Assembly: GCA_945873755.1 (NCBI GenBank)
Contig: CAMCEM010000011.1
Span: forward strand, 1 to 37,166
DNA: 37,166 nucleotides
Direction: 5' to 3'
Source of the DNA: Chitinophaga pinensis
GTDB lineage: Bacteria; Bacteroidota; Bacteroidia; UKL13-3
In this document: positions 25,890-37,115 of the stretch, piece after piece
Layout: each line of letters opens with the position of its first letter
How positions within the stretch are numbered: position 1 is the first letter of the stretch
Position numbers and translations under genes: made by a program
Notes under the pieces: model-generated
The model's database searches: none
Told to the model about the DNA's origin: nothing
The model's input: the letters and a program-made list of their open reading frames with translations, nothing else

Positions 25890-28800
25890 TTATTTTCTAA
25901 TTAAGGTAACTGAACCCCTTACTGTCTTTTCTTCACCACCTCTTAACTGATAAGTTAATAAATAATAATATGTTCCAGCTGGATTTTCTCCACCATCATT
26001 ATTGGTTCTTCCGTTCCACATAAAGTCTGATCTATCGCTTTCAAAAACATTATTACCCCATCTGTTCCAAATTAACATTTTGTATTTTTTCTCTCCAGTA
26101 ATGTCAATCTTGAACACATCATTTATTCCGTCATCATTTGGAGTAAATACGTTAGGAATGTTTATTTTACCTTTAGGTACTATTACTTCTATAATTTTAC
26201 AAACACTATCAGGACAAGATTGAGTTCCTGCAACATCTGCTATTATACAAACATTAAATGATTTAGTAGAATCAATATTAAACTCTTGTGTGAAATCATT
26301 TAAATTACTTGCTTCATCAAAATCTTTTGGATATCCAGTAAACAATGTGTTTTCAGGTAAATTATAAATTTTCCAAGTATACTTATCAGATATAGCAGTA
26401 TCAGAAGTATTTTGAAGTCTATAGAAACCTTCACCTGCAGGAGTTGCAATAAAATCAGCCTTCGATTTTAATGCTACTACAGTAACAGTATCCTGATTTT
26501 TACAAGGCGAAAATCCTTTTTCAAATCTAGTTGAATTTAATACCAATTGGTATTGACCAATTTGATTAAACTTATACTGCCATGAAGAATCTTCAACGTA
26601 ATCTGTTTTCAATAATGAATCTAATCGTGTAGTATAATTCGCATCAAAAACATCCATTCTGAATCTGTTAATGGTATCTCTATCAGATCTATTGAATAAT
26701 CTAAATACTTCTCCAACACACACAGTGTCTTTTGATGATTCAAGACCTACTTGGTAAGGAATATTTGTTGTAATCCTAATTGGCAATTCAAAACCGTCAA
26801 CTGTATCAGGGTAATAAGATGGCCTACAAACACTTGAACTTCCGTCTTCAGTACTGTAAGCTTCTGCCCTAATGAAGAAAGTGCCCGGTTCGTCATAGAA
26901 GAACTCAACTGTATCTATTACAGAATACTTAATTGGTATAGATAAATTATCTGGTCTACCAGAACGGATAATTGTTAATTTCGTGAATGTATCCCATGGA
27001 TTTGACCATGATTCTCTTTCAGGAATACTCACTACTCTAACTCTGTGAGGAACACAACCTAAAGTGTCATCTAAAATTACTAAATGAGGTCTAGGGCCAC
27101 TAATTACAAAATCTTTAAATGCTGTATCAGTACAACCTTGTTGTGTACTAATTGCTAATCTTAAGGTAAATTTGCCATACCTTCTGTAATCGTATTGAGG
27201 GTCTTCTAAAATAGATTGAGGTGCTAACGGGTTATATTTTCTGTCACCAAACCACCATTTCCAAGTTGCAATTCTATCTAATGAATCAATACCGGTTGTA
27301 GCAAAGTAATCATCAAAAATAATAGATGAATCTTTAAATAAAAACTTATCTCCACAAGCATATACATCTTTTGCTTCAATATAAGCTTTAGGTTTTACTA
27401 CATTTACATATTGCACACAAGTATCCCATCTTCCAGTACTATCAATTGAATACATTGATACTTTATATCTGCCATAAACTGGGTATTTCCATGTAACAGG
27501 ATTTGTAGTTCTAAATGAACCAAAAGCGTCAATGACCCCATCGGTTTGAAAATCCCAATAAATACGCTCATGGAAAAACTGTCTATTTTTATAACACCTT
27601 GTTGCAGGTGCTCCATTGGCATCAACTCCAACTACACGTAAATTATTGTGTGTTAATGGACAAACAGCAGTAGTGCCTGGGTAAATTAAATAATCTGTTA
27701 AATCGTAATTTACACTTGCTTTGATTGTATCGTTAGGGTAATCAAATTTTGAATAAGCCCAGTCATGCATGTTTCCAAAATCGTGGTTTCTATCAAAATT
27801 TTCTCCAGGAGCCAATGGCCTTGAACAATTTGATGAAGGATACCAATATCGAATAGAGTCATAAAAATATACCGTTTCACCTTGACAGAATACAGTATCC
27901 CATTCGCCAGCAGCATTTTTTATGTCAAAAGTATCTATTACACCAATTACTAAATATTTAGTAATCCTATTCTCGCAACGAGAAAAATTATTTGCAACCA
28001 TATTATGCAATACAGGTGTTATGTCGCCTCTTCTTTCCAATTGGCCATTTCCACCTAAAACCATTTGCTCAAAAGTAGATTTATAATACCTGTGCTTTAT
28101 AGGGGTAAACATTAAACTAGAATCTCTTCGTTCTATTATGGTGTCAATTCTTGTTGGTGGCAATACCCTTGCTATATCATCACATCTGTAAATTATATTT
28201 ATAATTGTATCAACCGATATTCGGGTACCTATAGGAAAATATTCAATGTTTGAAAGTGTCCAAGGAAGTTCGTTCGAATTAAAATTGTACCTTATTCTAT
28301 TATAAGGAATGTCTTCGTCAGGTTGGTAGTAAAATGAATCGACTGTTGCTGTTCCATCGCCCCACGACCAAATATCGGCAATTACATTATCTTGAATAGA
28401 GTCGTAATAATGAAAAGTAACTTCATCGCCTTTTCCTCTTAAATAACAAAATGCTGGTTTACTAGGAAATTCGTAAGCAAAACGTTCTGTTGTGTAATTG
28501 GCATTTAATTCAATAAATCTAAAGAATTTATGGTACCAAACTGTGTCACTAAAACACGAAGGTAAAGTACAATTGGTTGGAGAAAAACATCCTGTTCCAA
28601 CTATTAAACCTATTGTTACCCATCCTTTAGGATCTACAGGCATATTTGAAACTCCACCACCTGTTGGTCCACTTGGCCAATAATGTAACCAGGCTCTTGA
28701 ACCAGAAGGAGAACTCCACTGACGAGGAGGTTGAGGAGGATAATTTACTGCTAAATACATCATTGGCATTACAGTTCCTCCAGGAGTGGTTCCACCTTGC

Positions 28801-31800
28801 CAAGTTACAAATCCATCTAATTCACATGGGGTATTGTCGTTTCTATCAAGTAACGAATCGTAGTTAATTAATAACATTGTTCTTTGGTTACTTGGAATAA
28901 TACCAGCACCTTGATTTGTTCTTGCAGAGTCTACATACCCAGTTCTGTTAAATAGCAATTGAGGATCGCCACCTGATGAACCTGATTTAAAGTTAGGACA
29001 AACTTTTCCATCTTGACTTAAACCAAAAGCATCTGGACGGGTAAAACTTAAAGTTACACTGCTTGTACCATTACAATCCCAATCATCTAAGTAAACTGAA
29101 TCTCTTATTATTGAATCTTTTAATCCAAATGTTACTGGATCATATACTTTTATGGTATCAAATTTTAATTTTACAGTTCTATAACTTGGATCGCCTGAGA
29201 TATTATTCATCGTGTCTTTCATACGAAGCGTAACCGTAATATCTTGTATAACTTGGCGCTCAAAAGCATATTTATACAAAGTTTTAGTTGGAGAAATTCC
29301 AGGAATAATATCTGATCCTCTATACACCCTTGGTTGTCCATCATTGGCAGGGGTTGCTAGTGTGATAACCAACTGGCCTGTATCTATCCTAGTTCCAGCA
29401 GGAATTAAATCCATCCAATTTCCACGAGAACTAGATATAGGATCTGGTATTCCACGATTTAGCGTAATTATATTATTTGCAGGAATATCATTTGGCCAAA
29501 TGTTGACCATAGTATCTATACGAGTAGGTGTAGGCCCAACAGCCGTCATTGGTTTGTTCCAAGCTGCAGAATCTCGTGGTTGCACCCAAGTAACATTTGG
29601 TGGGGGTGCAGTTGGTGATGGCCATTGCGTGTATCCTATACTCCATCGTGTATTGTCGTAAGGAGGAAAATCATGTCCATACTTGAACCAATCAAAAATT
29701 ACATCCCAATTGGTATACTGACGAGTTGGGAAAGTATCGTGAGAATAATTACAAGTATTTAATCTACCTAAATATGCTCTACCATTTGCCACAAAAGCAC
29801 CAATTGTTCTGTTTTGTAAATCACCAGCATCTAAATAAGGTTTTAAACCATTGCCCGCAGCCGATGGATTTGGAATAGAATAAGAAGTACAAGCAGGAGC
29901 ATATTGGTCTTCTGCAAAATCCCAACGAATCCACAACCTGTCTGATTGATAAGTTAATGAGTTATTTACAAATTGAACAGGAAAAGTAGGTCCACATTGT
30001 AGTTTTTGCCATTGCTGAACTACATCTCGTGGAGGGGGAGGACCACCAGCAGGGAATGGATTTTCAATTCTAACAAAAGGTCCTAAAATATTTACTCCTA
30101 AGCCTATCAATCTATCTCTAAATAATGTGTCTGCAACTCTAGTTGATCTTGATATTGGATTAAAATAATCTCTATAAAAAGGACGAGTAATTAAAACGCT
30201 GGTAAATGGATTTCTAAAAGTAGTAGCAGTAGTGTCTACCCATCTTTTTATTAATGCATTTTCATCAGTTCTAAAAAAATCCCAACTTGAACTCATTGAA
30301 TCTGCCCAACCAATATGGCGCGCATGAATTCCTAAAATTTCTGTCGGATCAACTGTGCTATAAATGGTATCGTAAGCATAGGCTGATAATTTTCCATTAT
30401 AGTTATAAAACTGTGCATTGGTAGCTGTATTTGGTGTAAGTATTCGCCCATTTCTAGTATAAAGAGTTGGGTTTAAAACTGGCCCATTGGGATTGGTATA
30501 GGCAGGAAAACCTGCTTTTGGAGCAGCTTGGTAATCTTGGTATTGATACCTATTTATATCATCTGGTAAAGTATCAATTCGTGACCAAAAATTGTAAGTT
30601 CTTACTTTTGCTGGTGTTCCAGGGCAGATAACAGTTAAAGTTGGAAAAAACTGACCCATCCCTTTGTATTGGTAAGTTGGTTGGAAAATGTTTCTAAATG
30701 GCAAAACATCAGACCCTGGTGGGTTTGCATTTGGATCACGGAAATGCCATTGAATATCTAATTGTGTTCCACCAACTCCTTGTAAATCGTATTTATTGTA
30801 TAGCGTTAAAGTAGCATCGCCTTCTTTCATCAAACAAACTGAATCAGCTATTGAATCGTTTGGAATACTTCTTTTTGTTAAAATTTCAATTTGGTAAATA
30901 ATGTTTTCAGGTAAAGTTAAACCTGTAGTTTCATAATAAAAAGTATCTCTACAGCCTGATCTTCTGTCTTGAACTATTAAAAAGGGACGAAATACATTAT
31001 TTTCAGTGTAAGTATGCGTGTATGCATTGTTCCATCTGGCTAAATCTTGTGCATTGGTATTTGGTGGTCCAGATACATATCTTGTTCCATCGCCATAATC
31101 CCATATAAAAGATTGTGTATTGGCATAACTTAATTGAGTAATATTTTTAAAAATAAATTGTGAGCTATCACATTGCGCTCTTCCAGTAATGGTAAAACCT
31201 GGCTTAATGTCTGGTGCAATTTTAATTGCCTTTGCACTTAATAAATCAACTATTGGATCAGTTGTACAACCAACTGAATCAACAACTCTTAGTCCAACTT
31301 GATAGGCAGGATTATTTAAAGCATATTGGTGACAAACATTTCTAATATTGGTATCAGTAATAAAACGTGCATTACCATCTCCATAAGTCCATTCAAAAGA
31401 TTTTAATGGTGCGGTTCCTTGAACAGACGTATTATTAAAACAATATTGATTGCCTTTGAAACATTGGTTATCGTTGCTACTTAATGTAAATGAAGTAGTT
31501 GGTCTTTTCCAAATTTTTCTAGTTTTAGTAACTACAATATCTGGTCCATTGTTTCTTTTTACAACCAAAGTAATAGTATATTCTCCACCATTTTGATAGG
31601 TTTTTGAAAAAAACGTATTTGGAGGATTTCCTGCAATTATTTTGTTTACCGCAGTATCGTTAGGAATTCCCCAACGAATGGTGTAAGAAATAACATTTGC
31701 AACTGGAATATTTGGCGTTACAGTTATTGATGTTAAATCAACTCCTGCACAAGCAATTGTTGGAGTCATGGTGAAATCAGACTGGGCTTTTGCCCAATTT

Positions 31801-31877
31801 GATGCAAATAAAATTAAGACCAAAACACTGAATTGTTTTAATCTTGTGATGGAATTTTTAAAGTACATATATTTCAT
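25890..31877 (-). CDS. Giant PKD-rich secreted protein with T9SS type B (CHU_C) sorting domain
   Basis: 1995 residues. A signal peptide (FSVLVLILFASNWAKAQ) begins after a short N-terminus; Met4 (31868) is another possible start. PKD-type motifs are scattered through it: WTYGDGNARF (about 160), WDYGDGTRY (about 258), WSWGDGTAT (about 1168), WKWWFGDRKYNP (about 1538). The C-terminal 90 residues are the gliding-associated type B sorting domain (NVFTPNDDGINDVF, then RWGNNVFES, ending GSVTLIRK). T9SS would move it across the outer membrane to the surface or medium, where it may act in adhesion or gliding; binding targets are unknown. It lies 69 bases downstream of the membrane-tethered CHU_C gene, so the sigma factor may drive it. 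Most of the middle has no recognisable domain. Confidence 0.88.
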   Translation of the reverse strand: MKYMYFKNSITRLKQFSVLVLILFASNWAKAQSDFTMTPTIACAGVDLTSITVTPNIPVANVISYTIRWGIPNDTAVNKIIAGNPPNTFFSKTYQNGGEYTITLVVKRNNGPDIVVTKTRKIWKRPTTSFTLSSNDNQCFKGNQYCFNNTSVQGTAPLKSFEWTYGDGNARFITDTNIRNVCHQYALNNPAYQVGLRVVDSVGCTTDPIVDLLSAKAIKIAPDIKPGFTITGRAQCDSSQFIFKNITQLSYANTQSFIWDYGDGTRYVSGPPNTNAQDLARWNNAYTHTYTENNVFRPFLIVQDRRSGCRDTFYYETTGLTLPENIIYQIEILTKRSIPNDSIADSVCLMKEGDATLTLYNKYDLQGVGGTQLDIQWHFRDPNANPPGSDVLPFRNIFQPTYQYKGMGQFFPTLTVICPGTPAKVRTYNFWSRIDTLPDDINRYQYQDYQAAPKAGFPAYTNPNGPVLNPTLYTRNGRILTPNTATNAQFYNYNGKLSAYAYDTIYSTVDPTEILGIHARHIGWADSMSSSWDFFRTDENALIKRWVDTTATTFRNPFTSVLITRPFYRDYFNPISRSTRVADTLFRDRLIGLGVNILGPFVRIENPFPAGGPPPPRDVVQQWQKLQCGPTFPVQFVNNSLTYQSDRLWIRWDFAEDQYAPACTSYSIPNPSAAGNGLKPYLDAGDLQNRTIGAFVANGRAYLGRLNTCNYSHDTFPTRQYTNWDVIFDWFKYGHDFPPYDNTRWSIGYTQWPSPTAPPPNVTWVQPRDSAAWNKPMTAVGPTPTRIDTMVNIWPNDIPANNIITLNRGIPDPISSSRGNWMDLIPAGTRIDTGQLVITLATPANDGQPRVYRGSDIIPGISPTKTLYKYAFERQVIQDITVTLRMKDTMNNISGDPSYRTVKLKFDTIKVYDPVTFGLKDSIIRDSVYLDDWDCNGTSSVTLSFTRPDAFGLSQDGKVCPNFKSGSSGGDPQLLFNRTGYVDSARTNQGAGIIPSNQRTMLLINYDSLLDRNDNTPCELDGFVTWQGGTTPGGTVMPMMYLAVNYPPQPPRQWSSPSGSRAWLHYWPSGPTGGGVSNMPVDPKGWVTIGLIVGTGCFSPTNCTLPSCFSDTVWYHKFFRFIELNANYTTERFAYEFPSKPAFCYLRGKGDEVTFHYYDSIQDNVIADIWSWGDGTATVDSFYYQPDEDIPYNRIRYNFNSNELPWTLSNIEYFPIGTRISVDTIINIIYRCDDIARVLPPTRIDTIIERRDSSLMFTPIKHRYYKSTFEQMVLGGNGQLERRGDITPVLHNMVANNFSRCENRITKYLVIGVIDTFDIKNAAGEWDTVFCQGETVYFYDSIRYWYPSSNCSRPLAPGENFDRNHDFGNMHDWAYSKFDYPNDTIKASVNYDLTDYLIYPGTTAVCPLTHNNLRVVGVDANGAPATRCYKNRQFFHERIYWDFQTDGVIDAFGSFRTTNPVTWKYPVYGRYKVSMYSIDSTGRWDTCVQYVNVVKPKAYIEAKDVYACGDKFLFKDSSIIFDDYFATTGIDSLDRIATWKWWFGDRKYNPLAPQSILEDPQYDYRRYGKFTLRLAISTQQGCTDTAFKDFVISGPRPHLVILDDTLGCVPHRVRVVSIPERESWSNPWDTFTKLTIIRSGRPDNLSIPIKYSVIDTVEFFYDEPGTFFIRAEAYSTEDGSSSVCRPSYYPDTVDGFELPIRITTNIPYQVGLESSKDTVCVGEVFRLFNRSDRDTINRFRMDVFDANYTTRLDSLLKTDYVEDSSWQYKFNQIGQYQLVLNSTRFEKGFSPCKNQDTVTVVALKSKADFIATPAGEGFYRLQNTSDTAISDKYTWKIYNLPENTLFTGYPKDFDEASNLNDFTQEFNIDSTKSFNVCIIADVAGTQSCPDSVCKIIEVIVPKGKINIPNVFTPNDDGINDVFKIDITGEKKYKMLIWNRWGNNVFESDRSDFMWNGRTNNDGGENPAGTYYYLLTYQLRGGEEKTVRGSVTLIRK

Positions 31878-31946
31878 TTTTTATTATTTTAATTTTAAAC
31901 AGTTTGCTAACATAATATTATTTATTTCAAATTCAAATTTTATAAT

Positions 31947-32822
31947 TTATCTTATTAATTTTATTTTAGTCATTATGGTTTTGTTTTTTTCGTTATTTAC
32001 TAAATTATAAAGTAAAACACCATAGTAAACGCCTGAATAACATTGCTGTCCATTTTTTTGGTTTATACCATCCCAGCTATTATTTTTATCGTTCGACTCA
32101 AATATTAATTCATTGTTATGGTTATAAATTTTAAAGTTAAAAAGTTTTTCACCTTCAATTGGAATTACAAATTTATCGTTAATGCCATCTCCATTGGGTG
32201 TTAATACATTTGGCATTTCTTTAATTCCAAAATTACTGTTCTGTTCTTCAACATAAGTTACTACTTTTTCTGCTTCATCAATTGAGTCAATTTCTTGAAC
32301 TTGAGTTTCATTTAAATCAGAGGTTGATTCTGTTTTAATAAAATTAGGTGTAGGTTTTAAACTATTGTTTTCAATTAAATTGCTTTCTTTAACATTTAAA
32401 TTATTGCTTTCTGAATTGGTTTGAAAAGATTCACTTTTTATTGGAGTATTATTTACTTTGCTTTCTCTACTTTTCTTTACAAATACTTTTTCAGTTACAG
32501 TTTTTTTATCTTCAATTTTAGTTGGTAACTCTTCTTTAATTGTTGGTTGTTGCTTGCCAGGTAATTGAACTGTTTCAGTTATTTTATTTTTAGGAGAATT
32601 GGTTTTATAAAAATAATAAGAAACAGAGGAAACAACTGCCAAAAGCGAAACCATTTTTACAATTGAAATTGTTAATTTACTTGAAAATAGTTTTGACGAA
32701 TTACTAGCTTGACTTAACAAATTTGCATTGCCCATACTTTGTTCTACTCCTGCCCAAACATTTGGTGCATCTGGAGTAAAGTTTTCCATTTGGGTTTTTA
32801 ATATTTCGTCTAAATTGTTCAA
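31947..32822 (-). CDS. Membrane-anchored protein with anti-sigma-like N-terminus and CHU_C domain
   Basis: 291 residues from TTG at 32822, which overlaps the sigma-factor stop as TTGA; an ATG 33 bases further in is the alternative. Residues 1-48 are hydrophilic (LDEILKTQMENFTPDAPNVW), like the short cytoplasmic segment of Bacteroidota anti-sigma factors. One membrane helix lies at about 51-72 and there is no cleavable signal peptide. Residues 75-195 form a Lys/Glu/Ser/Asn-rich linker. Residues 200-291 are a CHU_C type B sorting domain (NVLTPNGDGINDKF through MTKIKLIR). The expected topology puts the sorting domain in the periplasm while the protein stays tethered. Placement behind an ECF sigma gene suggests an anti-sigma or regulator; this role is inferred. 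Confidence 0.78.
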   Translation of the reverse strand: MNNLDEILKTQMENFTPDAPNVWAGVEQSMGNANLLSQASNSSKLFSSKLTISIVKMVSLLAVVSSVSYYFYKTNSPKNKITETVQLPGKQQPTIKEELPTKIEDKKTVTEKVFVKKSRESKVNNTPIKSESFQTNSESNNLNVKESNLIENNSLKPTPNFIKTESTSDLNETQVQEIDSIDEAEKVVTYVEEQNSNFGIKEMPNVLTPNGDGINDKFVIPIEGEKLFNFKIYNHNNELIFESNDKNNSWDGINQKNGQQCYSGVYYGVLLYNLVNNEKNKTIMTKIKLIR

Positions 32823-33355
32823 TTTTTTAATTTATTATATTCTTTCAAAAATGCTGCTCTTGCTCTTGCAAGTTGGCTTTTTGAAGTTCCTTCATTTATA
32901 TTTAACATTTGTGCAATTTCGGCATGCGAATAACCTTCAATTGCGTATAAATTTAAAACTGTTCGGTAACCTATAGCCAATTTTTGCATGGTTTCCATAA
33001 TTTCCTTCTGACTTATTTTATCAATGGTATAATTATCAAAACCTAAATCAAATTCTTCACTTATATCAGTTGTTTCAGTATAAAATTTATTTACTCTAAT
33101 ACTTTCTAACGCACAATTTACAAAAATCCTTCTCATCCACGCTTCCAAAACTCCTTTCCCTTCAAACTGTTTCATTTTAGTAAAAACCCTTACAAATCCT
33201 TCTTGTAATACATCTTTTGCGTCTTCTGGATCTTTACAATACCTCAAACAAACTCCAAACATTTGCTTTACAGTATTTTCATACAATTTTTTCTGCGCTT
33301 TATTTTCGCCCTTTATACATCTATCTATTAAATCCTGACTTATGTTTTGGCTCAC
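32819..33355 (-). CDS. ECF (extracytoplasmic function) RNA polymerase sigma factor
   Basis: 178 residues. Region 2 is clear (DPEDAKDVLQEGFVRVFTKM followed by EAWMRRIFVNCALES), and region 4 carries the helix-turn-helix (GYSHAEIAQMLNINEGTSKS, then LARARAAFLKEY). Region 1.1 and region 3 are absent, as usual for ECF factors. It directs RNA polymerase to a small regulon, usually under control of a membrane partner encoded next to it. Here the partner gene overlaps its stop by 4 bases. The likely targets include its own operon and the 1995-residue secreted protein. It is divergent from another CHU_C gene, with 140 bases between them that could hold promoters for both. Confidence 0.94.
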   Translation of the reverse strand: MSQNISQDLIDRCIKGENKAQKKLYENTVKQMFGVCLRYCKDPEDAKDVLQEGFVRVFTKMKQFEGKGVLEAWMRRIFVNCALESIRVNKFYTETTDISEEFDLGFDNYTIDKISQKEIMETMQKLAIGYRTVLNLYAIEGYSHAEIAQMLNINEGTSKSQLARARAAFLKEYNKLKN

Positions 33356-33495
33356 TTTTTATAATGCTGAATAGGTTGATAGAAATATGTTATTTTTAGT
33401 TGCATTATAAAATAAAAAATTCTTAAAATTTTCTAAATCCTTTTTTTACAAGCTATTTGTTTTAAAATTTGTTTATTTTGTACTACATACAAACT

Positions 33496-36249
33496 TTGAA
33501 AATTCAATTTAATCATATCGCTTTTATAGTTATTTTAGTTTTTTTTAAAAATTGCATTTTGTACTCACAAAATATAATTGAAAATAACACTACGAAACAA
33601 ATTGGTTTTATAGAAAACAAAGGTCAATGGAATAACGATGTTTTTTTTAAAATGCAAACTGCTGCAACCCATGTTTTATTTAAAAAAAATACAATCAATT
33701 ATTATTATTTAAAAAATGAAGAGTTAGCTAAAAATAATCACCATTTGAATGCTAAACCCAACCAAATTAGTGGCCATTATATTTCGGTTGATTTTAAAAA
33801 CTGCAATGCAAATGCCATTCCTCAAAAAGTAGGAGAAGCAAATAATTATTATTTCAATTATTATTTAGAAAACGATAAAAGTAAATGGAAAAGCCATGTT
33901 AATACCTATACAAAAATGGTTTATAATAATCTATATAATAACATTGACTTATTTGTTGGCGCTAAAACAAACCATTCATTAAAGCTAGATTGGTTGGTAA
34001 AACCTAATGGAAAAATTGAAGACATAGCATTGAAGGTAAATGGTGCCGACAGCATTTACTTGAATTATGGCGAACTTTTTATATCACATTCACTAGGCAA
34101 TTTAAAAGAAAAAAAACCTTATGCTTACCAATATATTGAAGGAAAAAGAATTGATGTGGAAGTAAACTTTATAATTAAAAATAATTGTATTGGTTTTAAA
34201 ACTGCTCCCTATAACAAAAACTATAGTATAATAATTGATCCTGATTTAATTTTTAGCACTTATAGTGGTTCAACAGAAGACAATTTTGGATACACAGCTA
34301 CTTACGACAGTGAAGGAAATTTATTTGCTGGAGGAATAACTACTAATGCGTTTGGAGGAAAATATCCGGTAACAGCAGGTGCATTTCAATTAGTATATAA
34401 AGGAGGAACAACCGAACCACCGGTAAATTTACCTTGCGATATTACTATTAGTAAATATTCGAGTGAAGGAAAACAACTAATTTATGCAACTTATTTAGGA
34501 GGAAGCAATAATGAAAATCCACACAGTTTAATTGCAGATAAATTTGATAATTTGGTTGTAATGGGAACTACAAAATCGAAAGATTATCCTGTAAGTATTA
34601 GCGGCTTTGATACCAGTCAAAATGGCGATTACGATTTAATTATTACCAAATTTAATAAAGACGGAAGTGCGTTGCTAGGTTCAACTTATTTTGGAGGATA
34701 TTTGGATGATGGATTAAATAGAAATACAAACCTAAATGTATTTTATGCTGATGAATTTAAAGGTGATTTAATAATTGACAAAAACAATAATATTATAGTA
34801 GGAAGTTGCAGTTACTCATTAAACTTTCCAATTACAGCTGGTTCTTTTGGTTCTGCTATTTCCGACACTTTGCAAAAAGGTGTGGTATTTAAATTTTCGG
34901 AAAATTGCGAAAATTTAATTTTTAGTGCTGCTTTGCCTGGCAATAGCGAAGATGTAATTTATAGTGTAGATTTAAATACAAATGACGACATATTTATTGC
35001 GGGAAGCACAACTGGTGCTATAAATATTGCAACTGCGACAAATTCATTTTTTGGAGGAAAAAGCGATGGTTTTTTTGCAAAAATAAAAAATGATGGAAGC
35101 GCTGTTTTAAAATTAAAATATTTTGGAACAGCATCGGCCGATCAAATATTTAGTTTGGAACTAGACGAAAAAGAAAATATTTATGTGGTAGGAAATTCGT
35201 TGGGTAATTTACAAAAAGTAGGAAATGTGTATTTTAATTCTTTAGGCAAACAATTTATAAGCAAAATTAATAACGATTTTAATGCCATTGAATTCACAAG
35301 TATTTTTGGAAGAGGTTTGGCAAATTTAGACATTAGCATCAATGCGTTTTTATTGGATGAATGTGGCCGATTATACATAAGTGGTTGGGGTGGAACAAAT
35401 GGAGTAGGAAATACATTTAACTTACCAATTACAGCAGATGCATTTCAAAAAACAACTGACGGACGAGATTTTTATTTAATGGTTTTAAGTGAAAATGCTG
35501 AAAAGTTGTTATTCGGAAGTTATTTTGGTGGCGATAAAACAGGCGATCATGTTGATGGAGGAACAAGTAGGTTTGATAAAAAAGGTTTTATTTATCAATC
35601 TGTATGTGCCAGTTGCCCTGACTTTAATGGCCAACCCACCATGAACGATTTTCCAATAAGTACAGATGCTGTTTTTAAAACCAATGTTAGTCCTAGGTGT
35701 AGTAATGCTGCTTTTAAAATGTCGTTTTCGTTTAAAGAAGCTAAAATACTAATGACCATAGATACTTGTGCTAGAAAAGTAACACTAAATACACCTACAG
35801 ACAATGCTTTAAATTATTTATGGCTATTGCCAAATGGCAAAACAAGTAATATTAGGAACCCAATTATTGAAATAGATGAAATAAATAACAAAGAAATAAC
35901 ATTGATATTGAATGCTTTTACCAATTGTGCAGATACTACAAAAGCTACTTTAAACTATGTAGATTCTTTCTCATTGGCTTCATTTTCAAATGTTTTTACC
36001 CCAAATAACGATGGAATAAACGACTATTTTTCAATAGAAGGAATAACTAAATGTGGCGAATTTGACTTGACTTTTTACAACAGATGGGGGCAAGAAGTTT
36101 TTAAAACCGATGAAAATGGTTTTAAATGGGATGGAAAGACTAAAGCCGGTGAGCCTTTATTAGAAGGCGTTTACTTTTATTTGGGTAAATACAAAAACCA
36201 AAATTCAACTGAAGTAAAGTTGCATGGAACAGTTACTATAATTCGGTAA
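33496..36249 (+). CDS. DUF7948/SBBP-repeat secreted protein with CHU_C sorting domain
   Basis: 917 residues from TTG at 33496; TTG at 33469 would add nine. There is no ATG before residue 60 or so, and the 33496 start gives a good signal peptide (KIQFNHIAFIVILVFFKN through YSQ). The N-terminal part has the DUF7948 pattern (IGFIENKGQWNNDVFFK, then DLFVGAK and LDWLVKPNGKIEDIAL). A series of SBBP-type beta-propeller repeats follows (YATYLGGSNNENPHSLI, GSTYFGGYLDDG, FGSYFGGDKTGDHVDGG). The last 90 residues are a CHU_C domain (NVFTPNNDGINDYF, NRWGQEVFKT, LHGTVTIIR). It should be exported by T9SS. It is 56 bases upstream of an outer-membrane barrel gene. Confidence 0.88.
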   Translation: MKIQFNHIAFIVILVFFKNCILYSQNIIENNTTKQIGFIENKGQWNNDVFFKMQTAATHVLFKKNTINYYYLKNEELAKNNHHLNAKPNQISGHYISVDFKNCNANAIPQKVGEANNYYFNYYLENDKSKWKSHVNTYTKMVYNNLYNNIDLFVGAKTNHSLKLDWLVKPNGKIEDIALKVNGADSIYLNYGELFISHSLGNLKEKKPYAYQYIEGKRIDVEVNFIIKNNCIGFKTAPYNKNYSIIIDPDLIFSTYSGSTEDNFGYTATYDSEGNLFAGGITTNAFGGKYPVTAGAFQLVYKGGTTEPPVNLPCDITISKYSSEGKQLIYATYLGGSNNENPHSLIADKFDNLVVMGTTKSKDYPVSISGFDTSQNGDYDLIITKFNKDGSALLGSTYFGGYLDDGLNRNTNLNVFYADEFKGDLIIDKNNNIIVGSCSYSLNFPITAGSFGSAISDTLQKGVVFKFSENCENLIFSAALPGNSEDVIYSVDLNTNDDIFIAGSTTGAINIATATNSFFGGKSDGFFAKIKNDGSAVLKLKYFGTASADQIFSLELDEKENIYVVGNSLGNLQKVGNVYFNSLGKQFISKINNDFNAIEFTSIFGRGLANLDISINAFLLDECGRLYISGWGGTNGVGNTFNLPITADAFQKTTDGRDFYLMVLSENAEKLLFGSYFGGDKTGDHVDGGTSRFDKKGFIYQSVCASCPDFNGQPTMNDFPISTDAVFKTNVSPRCSNAAFKMSFSFKEAKILMTIDTCARKVTLNTPTDNALNYLWLLPNGKTSNIRNPIIEIDEINNKEITLILNAFTNCADTTKATLNYVDSFSLASFSNVFTPNNDGINDYFSIEGITKCGEFDLTFYNRWGQEVFKTDENGFKWDGKTKAGEPLLEGVYFYLGKYKNQNSTEVKLHGTVTIIR

Positions 36250-36305: not shown

Positions 36306-37115
36306 ATGAAATATTTAACTTTATTAATTTTAATTTTAATATCCAAATTTATAACTGCGCAACAGGTAATTGGCCCAATAGGCGCTAATGCTTGGTCGGT
36401 AGGAGGAAACTCTGTAGCCGAAAAAAATGTATTTAGCGTAAACAACAATATGGCTGCTACTGCCGATTTAAATTCATTTAACATAGGAATTTATAACCAA
36501 ACTCCGTTTGCTATAAAACAACTTAATACTATAAATGCCAGTGTTATAATACCTTCAAAGCTTTTAAATATTGGGTTTTCGGTAAATAATTTTGGTTATG
36601 AAAAATTTAATCAGCAAAATTTGAGTATAGGAATAAGTAAAAAATTAAACAATAATTTTAACTTGGGTATAACCTTAAATTATTTAACAATAAATGTATA
36701 CGGACAAGAAAACACAGGTGCATTAACGGGAAGTGTAAGCACTTTTTATAAAATAAATAAAAATATACAACTAGGAGTTTTGTTATTTAACCCAATAGAA
36801 AGCAAATACAATATAAACGGATACGGAAATGTAAATACTTTTGGACGAATTGGGGCAAAGTATCAATTAAGTAAAAGCGTGTTTTTAATTGGTGAAATAG
36901 ATAAAACTATTCAATACGAAGCCATTTTAAGAGGGGGAATAAATTATGCTATTCATCCTAAATTTAATTTAAGCTTAGGCTTTGCCAATAACCCTAATAT
37001 AATTACTTGCGGTTTTAATGCCAAGGTAAAACAAATTGATATTACTTTTGCAACAAGTATTCATGAAACATTGGGCTTAACACCTCATATTGGTTTGGTA
37101 TTTTATGGTAAATAA
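36306..37115 (+). CDS. Outer-membrane beta-barrel protein, possibly PorV/PorQ-like
   Basis: 269 residues with a signal peptide (MKYLTLLILILISKFITAQ). The mature part is a run of amphipathic beta-strands with short turns. It starts with a GGNSVAEKNVFSVNNNMA segment like the 'GG-(S/A)-A...NPA' N-terminus of PorV/PorQ and FadL-type barrels, and ends in IGLVFYGK. In T9SS, PorV shuttles cargo from the translocon to the attachment complex and PorQ belongs to that complex; some paralogues sit beside one cargo gene. Its place behind a CHU_C protein suits that. Family assignment is tentative because conserved residues are few; a generic barrel is the alternative. Confidence 0.65.
   Translation: MKYLTLLILILISKFITAQQVIGPIGANAWSVGGNSVAEKNVFSVNNNMAATADLNSFNIGIYNQTPFAIKQLNTINASVIIPSKLLNIGFSVNNFGYEKFNQQNLSIGISKKLNNNFNLGITLNYLTINVYGQENTGALTGSVSTFYKINKNIQLGVLLFNPIESKYNINGYGNVNTFGRIGAKYQLSKSVFLIGEIDKTIQYEAILRGGINYAIHPKFNLSLGFANNPNIITCGFNAKVKQIDITFATSIHETLGLTPHIGLVFYGK

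Follow-up and report, generated by a model that had tools for sequence, protein, structure and literature searches.

Why does a gene for an extracytoplasmic function (ECF) sigma factor overlap a gene for a membrane-anchored protein that ends in a sorting domain of the type IX secretion system (T9SS)? The question is raised by two genes in a 37,166-nt stretch of Chitinophaga pinensis DNA (GenBank contig CAMCEM010000011.1; hereafter the window, meaning the whole stretch that was analysed), contig C11 of a draft genome that totals 3.13 Mb in 202 contigs. The named relatives of this genome are mostly environmental metagenome-assembled genomes, and they include the complete genome UKL13-3. From the sequence evidence set out below, we consider it very likely that the anchored protein is the transmembrane anti-sigma factor of the neighbouring sigma factor, carrying a T9SS-type (CHU_C) domain in the position of a sensor. 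The two open reading frames share four bases (TTGA), and the sigma gene overlaps its partner exactly where a first-pass annotation of the sequence had placed it. The locus comprises the following parts.

32819..33355, minus strand: ECF sigma factor gene; 178 amino acids (aa), GTG start; Pfam Sigma70_r2 and Sigma70_r4_2
31947..32822, minus strand: predicted transmembrane anti-sigma factor with C-terminal CHU_C domain; 291 aa, TTG start; kept in the genus and most of the family
32679..32822, minus strand: predicted N-terminal anti-sigma domain, residues 1-48; motif LDeiLKxxMxxFxPxxPxVWxxIe; profile match to barrel-type (Dma-like) anti-sigma factors
32619..32675, minus strand: predicted membrane helix, residues 50-68; hydropathy maximum
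32220..32618, minus strand: disordered linker, residues 69-201; low pLDDT and sequence divergence among orthologs
31950..32219, minus strand: derived type-B T9SS (CHU_C) domain, residues 202-291; Pfam CHU_C, with RWG replaced by HNN

The sigma protein matched Pfam sigma70 region 2 (5e-13) and region 4 (4e-16). In the 291-aa partner the only match above cut-off was Pfam CHU_C at residues 202-281 (6e-15; 55.6 bits, cut-off 27), and the NCBIfam type-B model TIGR04131 scored 33.3 bits, slightly below its cut-off of 35. The hydropathy maximum (residues 50-68) lies behind a hydrophilic stretch of 49 residues, and the peak for a single membrane helix is present in all orthologs. AlphaFold2 modelled two N-terminal helices (residues 4-13 and 22-30) and a C-terminal domain mostly above a pLDDT of 90, with pLDDT below 50 over most of residues 33-190 and the membrane helix modelled at low confidence only. 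Hydropathy, Pfam and AlphaFold2 thus match the architecture given in the first-pass annotation, namely a short hydrophilic N terminus, one helix, a linker and a C-terminal CHU_C domain. The linker that it had called low-complexity is disordered in the model and somewhat longer than the 120 residues it gave: we measured ~134 aa in the window protein and 126-150 aa across 29 orthologs, and the floor of 126 aa recurs in separate lineages outside the family. Mean pairwise identity among the orthologs was 16% in the linker, 36% in the N terminus and 44% in CHU_C. The hydropathy profile showed no Sec-type signal peptide, since the hydrophobic stretch begins only at residue 50, behind the conserved anti-sigma domain; an anchor in place of a signal peptide had been proposed, and the profile agrees with it. 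A Foldseek search of the anti-sigma model against the PDB returned weak immunoglobulin-like (Ig-like) matches only, none below 1e-3.

Whether the two genes belong together had been singled out in advance by the first-pass annotation, which named a survey of genome neighbourhoods for linkage between sigma genes and anchor-plus-CHU_C proteins as the main refuting test. Full-length orthologs of the anchored protein were found in nine of nine same-genus genomes and in most same-family genomes, and a sigma gene lay directly upstream in all 29 that were read, so the pairing is not due to chance. We then searched 295 genomes across the class and read the best loci. Among these were 27 full-length anchored forms, every one with a sigma gene upstream (27/27), and 20 of them came from outside the family, spread over ten other families. 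The survey therefore upheld the linkage, and the two-gene module is small, conserved and widespread in the class Bacteroidia. At one locus (L261, 8293-10511, minus strand), two different sigma genes flank an anchored CHU_C protein in a single genome.

The N-terminal domain indicates what kind of regulator the anchored protein would be. D5, P20 and W23 of its motif are invariant in the alignment, and its profile matched that of the barrel-type (Dma-like) proteins with 97.6% probability (E 3e-12), while column-shuffled profile controls reached 9.6% at most. The work cited for the Dma family is reportedly that of Pardue (2024). Dma proteins consist of an anti-sigma domain, a membrane helix, a disordered tether and an outer-membrane beta-barrel, and they span both membranes; when dma2 is deleted, transcripts from the dma2 locus itself rise, and the sigma gene das2 is required for the phenotype (PMC13088901). 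The window protein shares with them an adjacent ECF sigma factor, a homologous N-terminal domain (compared on barrel-type relatives), one membrane helix and a long disordered tether leading to a C-terminal envelope domain. It differs in that this last domain is a derived T9SS type-B domain, whereas Dma ends in an outer-membrane barrel; that the window protein reaches or crosses the outer membrane would be conjecture. The cognate sigma factor of the Dma family is an ECF21; here the adjacent ECF sigma factor is 44-49% identical over ~170 aa to sigma factors of Parabacteroides and relatives that have Dma-architecture partners, and the sigma factors of CHU_C-type and Dma-like loci interleave on the sigma tree. 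Behind related sigma genes in named genomes, the downstream protein nearly always has the same N-terminal motif and a membrane helix, followed by ends of differing kinds (35 long, 27 short and 16 CHU_C); a Pfam outer-membrane barrel is present in 32 of the 35 long-type homologs. Because the N terminus is homologous to the Dma-like anti-sigma domain, we regard the window protein as a regulator of a known kind whose sensor domain is new, and we infer that residues 1-48 bind the sigma factor. The protein is a sister architecture of Dma in which the barrel is swapped for a T9SS-type domain, so it is no Dma member as defined. It extends the newly described Dma idea to a second kind of envelope domain and suggests that envelope sensors are built in a modular way. 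Two further sigma-linked long membrane proteins in the window's genome, on contigs C70 and C155, share this N-terminal motif, and a barrel end is weakly supported for the C70 protein only.

In the open-access literature that was searched, we found no published description of a sigma-linked anchored CHU_C arrangement; no papers there joined sigma factors with CHU_C annotation, and CHU_C appeared together with anti-sigma factors only in unrelated papers. The closest precedent in function is the PorA/PorXY-SigP pathway of Porphyromonas gingivalis, in which a protein bearing a T9SS signal likewise feeds into an ECF sigma factor (PMC7712824); there, however, the sigma factor is activated by PorX, whereas here the predicted cognate anti-sigma factor itself carries the T9SS domain. 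The anchored protein is thus neither PorA/SigP nor, having no signal peptide and no RW(G), an ordinary T9SS substrate.

How far has the CHU_C domain departed from that of exported cargo? None of 60 sigma-linked domains contained the RW(G) signature, as opposed to 98% of the cargo domains in the contrast set; the corresponding counts in the first set were 0/39 and 82/84. The tryptophan of NRWG is gone from every sigma-linked copy and the terminal GxxT is eroded as well; the core motifs P, D, ND, WxG and GxY are retained at 87-100%. An exception to the cargo rule was seen in family f38 (L201, 761-5569, and L199), whose giant-cargo CHU_C domains also have no RW (NRYS, NRHG). On the CHU_C tree 59 of the 60 sigma-linked domains fell into one group, and with the RW columns removed the sigma-linked label still needed just two changes. 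We considered several independent captures of CHU_C, since the sigma tree requires at least five label changes, but that tree may also accommodate one origin, and the two changes on the CHU_C tree led us to prefer a single old origin, as far as these phylogenies indicate. The sigma-linked copies are then related by descent, and the RW(G) counts are not independent events. An invariant cysteine that might form a disulfide to GldK/PorK, as SprF and PorG do (PMC12635249), was likewise set aside: it occurs in 36 of 39 sigma-linked domains of the first set, but cargo domains have it too (22 of 84), and outside the family it is missing from most of the sigma-linked copies, so it is not specific to the module.

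In Flavobacterium johnsoniae, the SprB type-B domain has five conserved motifs that are each required for secretion (PMC12618676), and RW(G) belongs, on our reading, to one of the five. The sigma-linked domains are probably derived sensors and not ordinary export signals, the likeliest role suggested by their sequences being that of a sensor or decoy that must avoid being handled as finished cargo. The first-pass annotation had proposed that the tethered domain imitates cargo; the type-B fold is kept, but faithful mimicry does not survive the loss of RW(G) from every sigma-linked copy. Resemblance to type-B substrates remains in the CHU_C domain at the extreme C terminus, the shared core motifs and the T9SS-bearing host (PMC12618676, PMC9143113). 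Such substrates have a signal peptide, RW(G) and often an adjacent PorP/SprF-like carrier; the window protein has none of these and is anchored in the inner membrane. In anchored proteins of several families a PKD domain precedes CHU_C, as it does in cargo, so that the anchored end looks like the final pair of domains in a giant cargo protein. A C-terminal Arg behind a hydrophobic stretch is kept in most family members.

These comparisons bear on two other readings. That the protein is simply a secreted type-B cargo that happens to sit behind a sigma gene is hardly credible: its CHU_C domain does score above the Pfam cut-off, but the helix is preceded by 49 hydrophilic residues in place of a Sec signal peptide, the N terminus is a homologous anti-sigma domain, RW(G) is missing, and the sigma linkage is strict across families. 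It is also improbable, though less so, that CHU_C passes through or jams the T9SS translocon while the N terminus stays in the inner membrane, so that the protein would sense the surface or the moving gliding/T9SS machinery. The first three modules are as in Dma, which span both membranes (PMC13088901), the linker has a length floor and is long enough to cross the periplasm, and the domain is always C-terminal, with the terminal Arg after its hydrophobic stretch in most family members. Yet no sigma-linked copy has RW(G), and each of the five SprB motifs is needed for secretion (PMC12618676); nor does a cognate PorP/SprF-like gene lie nearby. For what the domain might read and what the sigma factor might transcribe, the surrounding features are needed.

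33377..33404, minus strand: promoter-like site TGCAACT-N18-TCA, 22 bp ahead of the sigma start; spacing common to nearly all relatives read
25890..31877, minus strand: giant type-B T9SS cargo, 1995 aa; Pfam PKD_4 and CHU_C, RWG intact; signal-peptide-like N terminus
31902..31910, minus strand: TTAGCAAAC element between the anti-sigma and giant genes; kept in the genus, with variant forms in other family members
33469..36249, plus strand: divergent type-B cargo gene; Pfam DUF7948, SBBP and CHU_C

The order sigma gene, anchored protein, giant CHU_C/PKD protein (1865-2533 aa) is kept in 20 of 20 family neighbourhoods, and a DUF7948/SBBP/CHU_C gene diverges from the sigma gene in 18 of the 20. Outside the family, about half of the loci read have a CHU_C cargo gene in the vicinity. 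The pairs L089 and L120, from different records, have a similar gene order around the sigma and anti-sigma genes and no CHU_C cargo nearby. SprA was present in 30 of 30 pair-bearing genomes tested and also in the window's genome. No PorP/SprF-like carrier gene adjoins the window's pair; TIGR03519 matches in the genome are on contigs C30 and C12 only. Nearly all relatives have a TGCAACY-N18-TCW site ahead of the sigma gene, 21-25 bp from the start where measured. With a strict form of the motif, the sigma gene's own site was recovered in three of the four relatives searched, and among intergenic matches in those four only one other gene start lay within 60 bp. The TTAGCAAAC element is not a promoter motif of this sigma type. 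The site suggests an autoregulated operon whose main product would be the giant cargo, and since strict copies lie almost only ahead of the sigma operon, the likeliest output is the operon with its giant cargo and not a T9SS regulon; a looser regulon beyond the operon may exist.

In the mechanism that we propose, residues 1-48 would hold the sigma factor at the inner membrane, and the single helix and ~135-residue disordered tether would let the derived type-B domain reach outer-membrane components. The domain would read the type-B route through occupancy of the SprA translocon, occupancy of a PorP/SprF-like carrier or build-up of the neighbouring giant cargo. Changed engagement would free the sigma factor, either through proteolytic cleavage of the tether or through a change relayed along the helix, and the freed sigma factor would transcribe its own operon, including the anti-sigma gene and often the giant type-B cargo, in a feedback loop that matches cargo production to export. 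Cells may thus use the conserved sigma/anti-sigma pairing to read the state of the T9SS. Signalling from a tethered T9SS-type domain through one helix to a sigma factor, as first suggested from the sequence, is the natural reading of the architecture together with its conserved linkage. Here we infer that the sigma factor is bound, what the ligand is, which way the response runs and how release occurs, as well as engagement of a T9SS part by the CHU_C domain, and the T9SS-reading mechanism as a whole is one toward which we lean only slightly.

Several observations weigh against it. With RW(G) absent and GxxT eroded, the domain may have lost its contact with the T9SS; outside the family, an adjoining cargo gene is lacking for about half of the pairs; SprA is probably common in the class, which makes its presence in 30 of 30 genomes weak evidence; and strict copies of the promoter motif were not found at T9SS genes, in a consensus search only. 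Covariation between the sigma factor and the anti-sigma domain, whose top pairs joined helix 1 (residues 5, 8 and 12) to sigma4 and residues 18-20 to sigma2, was no stronger than in the sigma/CHU_C control. Some of these points would suit a plain anti-sigma factor whose CHU_C domain is an ancient capture, taken up as a convenient Ig-like fold, that has left the T9SS and now binds a glycan, peptidoglycan, a metal or another envelope protein. Such a protein would account for a distinct domain family (distinct even without the RW columns) with RW(G) in no copy and for the loci, about half of those read outside the family, that have no neighbouring cargo gene. We nevertheless think it unlikely, if a serious contender, as most core motifs (P, D, ND, WxG, GxY) are kept, the domain is always C-terminal, SprA occurs in every pair-bearing genome tested, and cargo genes adjoin the pair in many families.

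Should the T9SS-reading mechanism hold, the control of the huge T9SS cargo output against export capacity, which in Bacteroidota is largely open outside P. gingivalis, would have a candidate device. Tentatively, and with the odds somewhat against so broad a statement, there may be a general Bacteroidota class of anti-sigma factors in which a derived copy of an envelope client (the barrel in Dma, the T9SS export signal here) serves as the sensor, a decoy that competes with real clients for the assembly or export machine. If true, T9SS capacity would be read out directly, and no separate receptor would be needed.

Behind the divergent CHU_C cargo gene, the window encodes a 269-aa protein (36306-37115, plus strand) that is kept in the genus. 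PorP/SprF models gave no match to it. Its structural model is a FadL/PorV-like barrel of 14 strands whose N terminus forms a plug, and chain F of the T9SS complex 8gl6 gave the best query-normalised TM score, 0.73; on this model, the protein is a possible carrier for type-B cargo.
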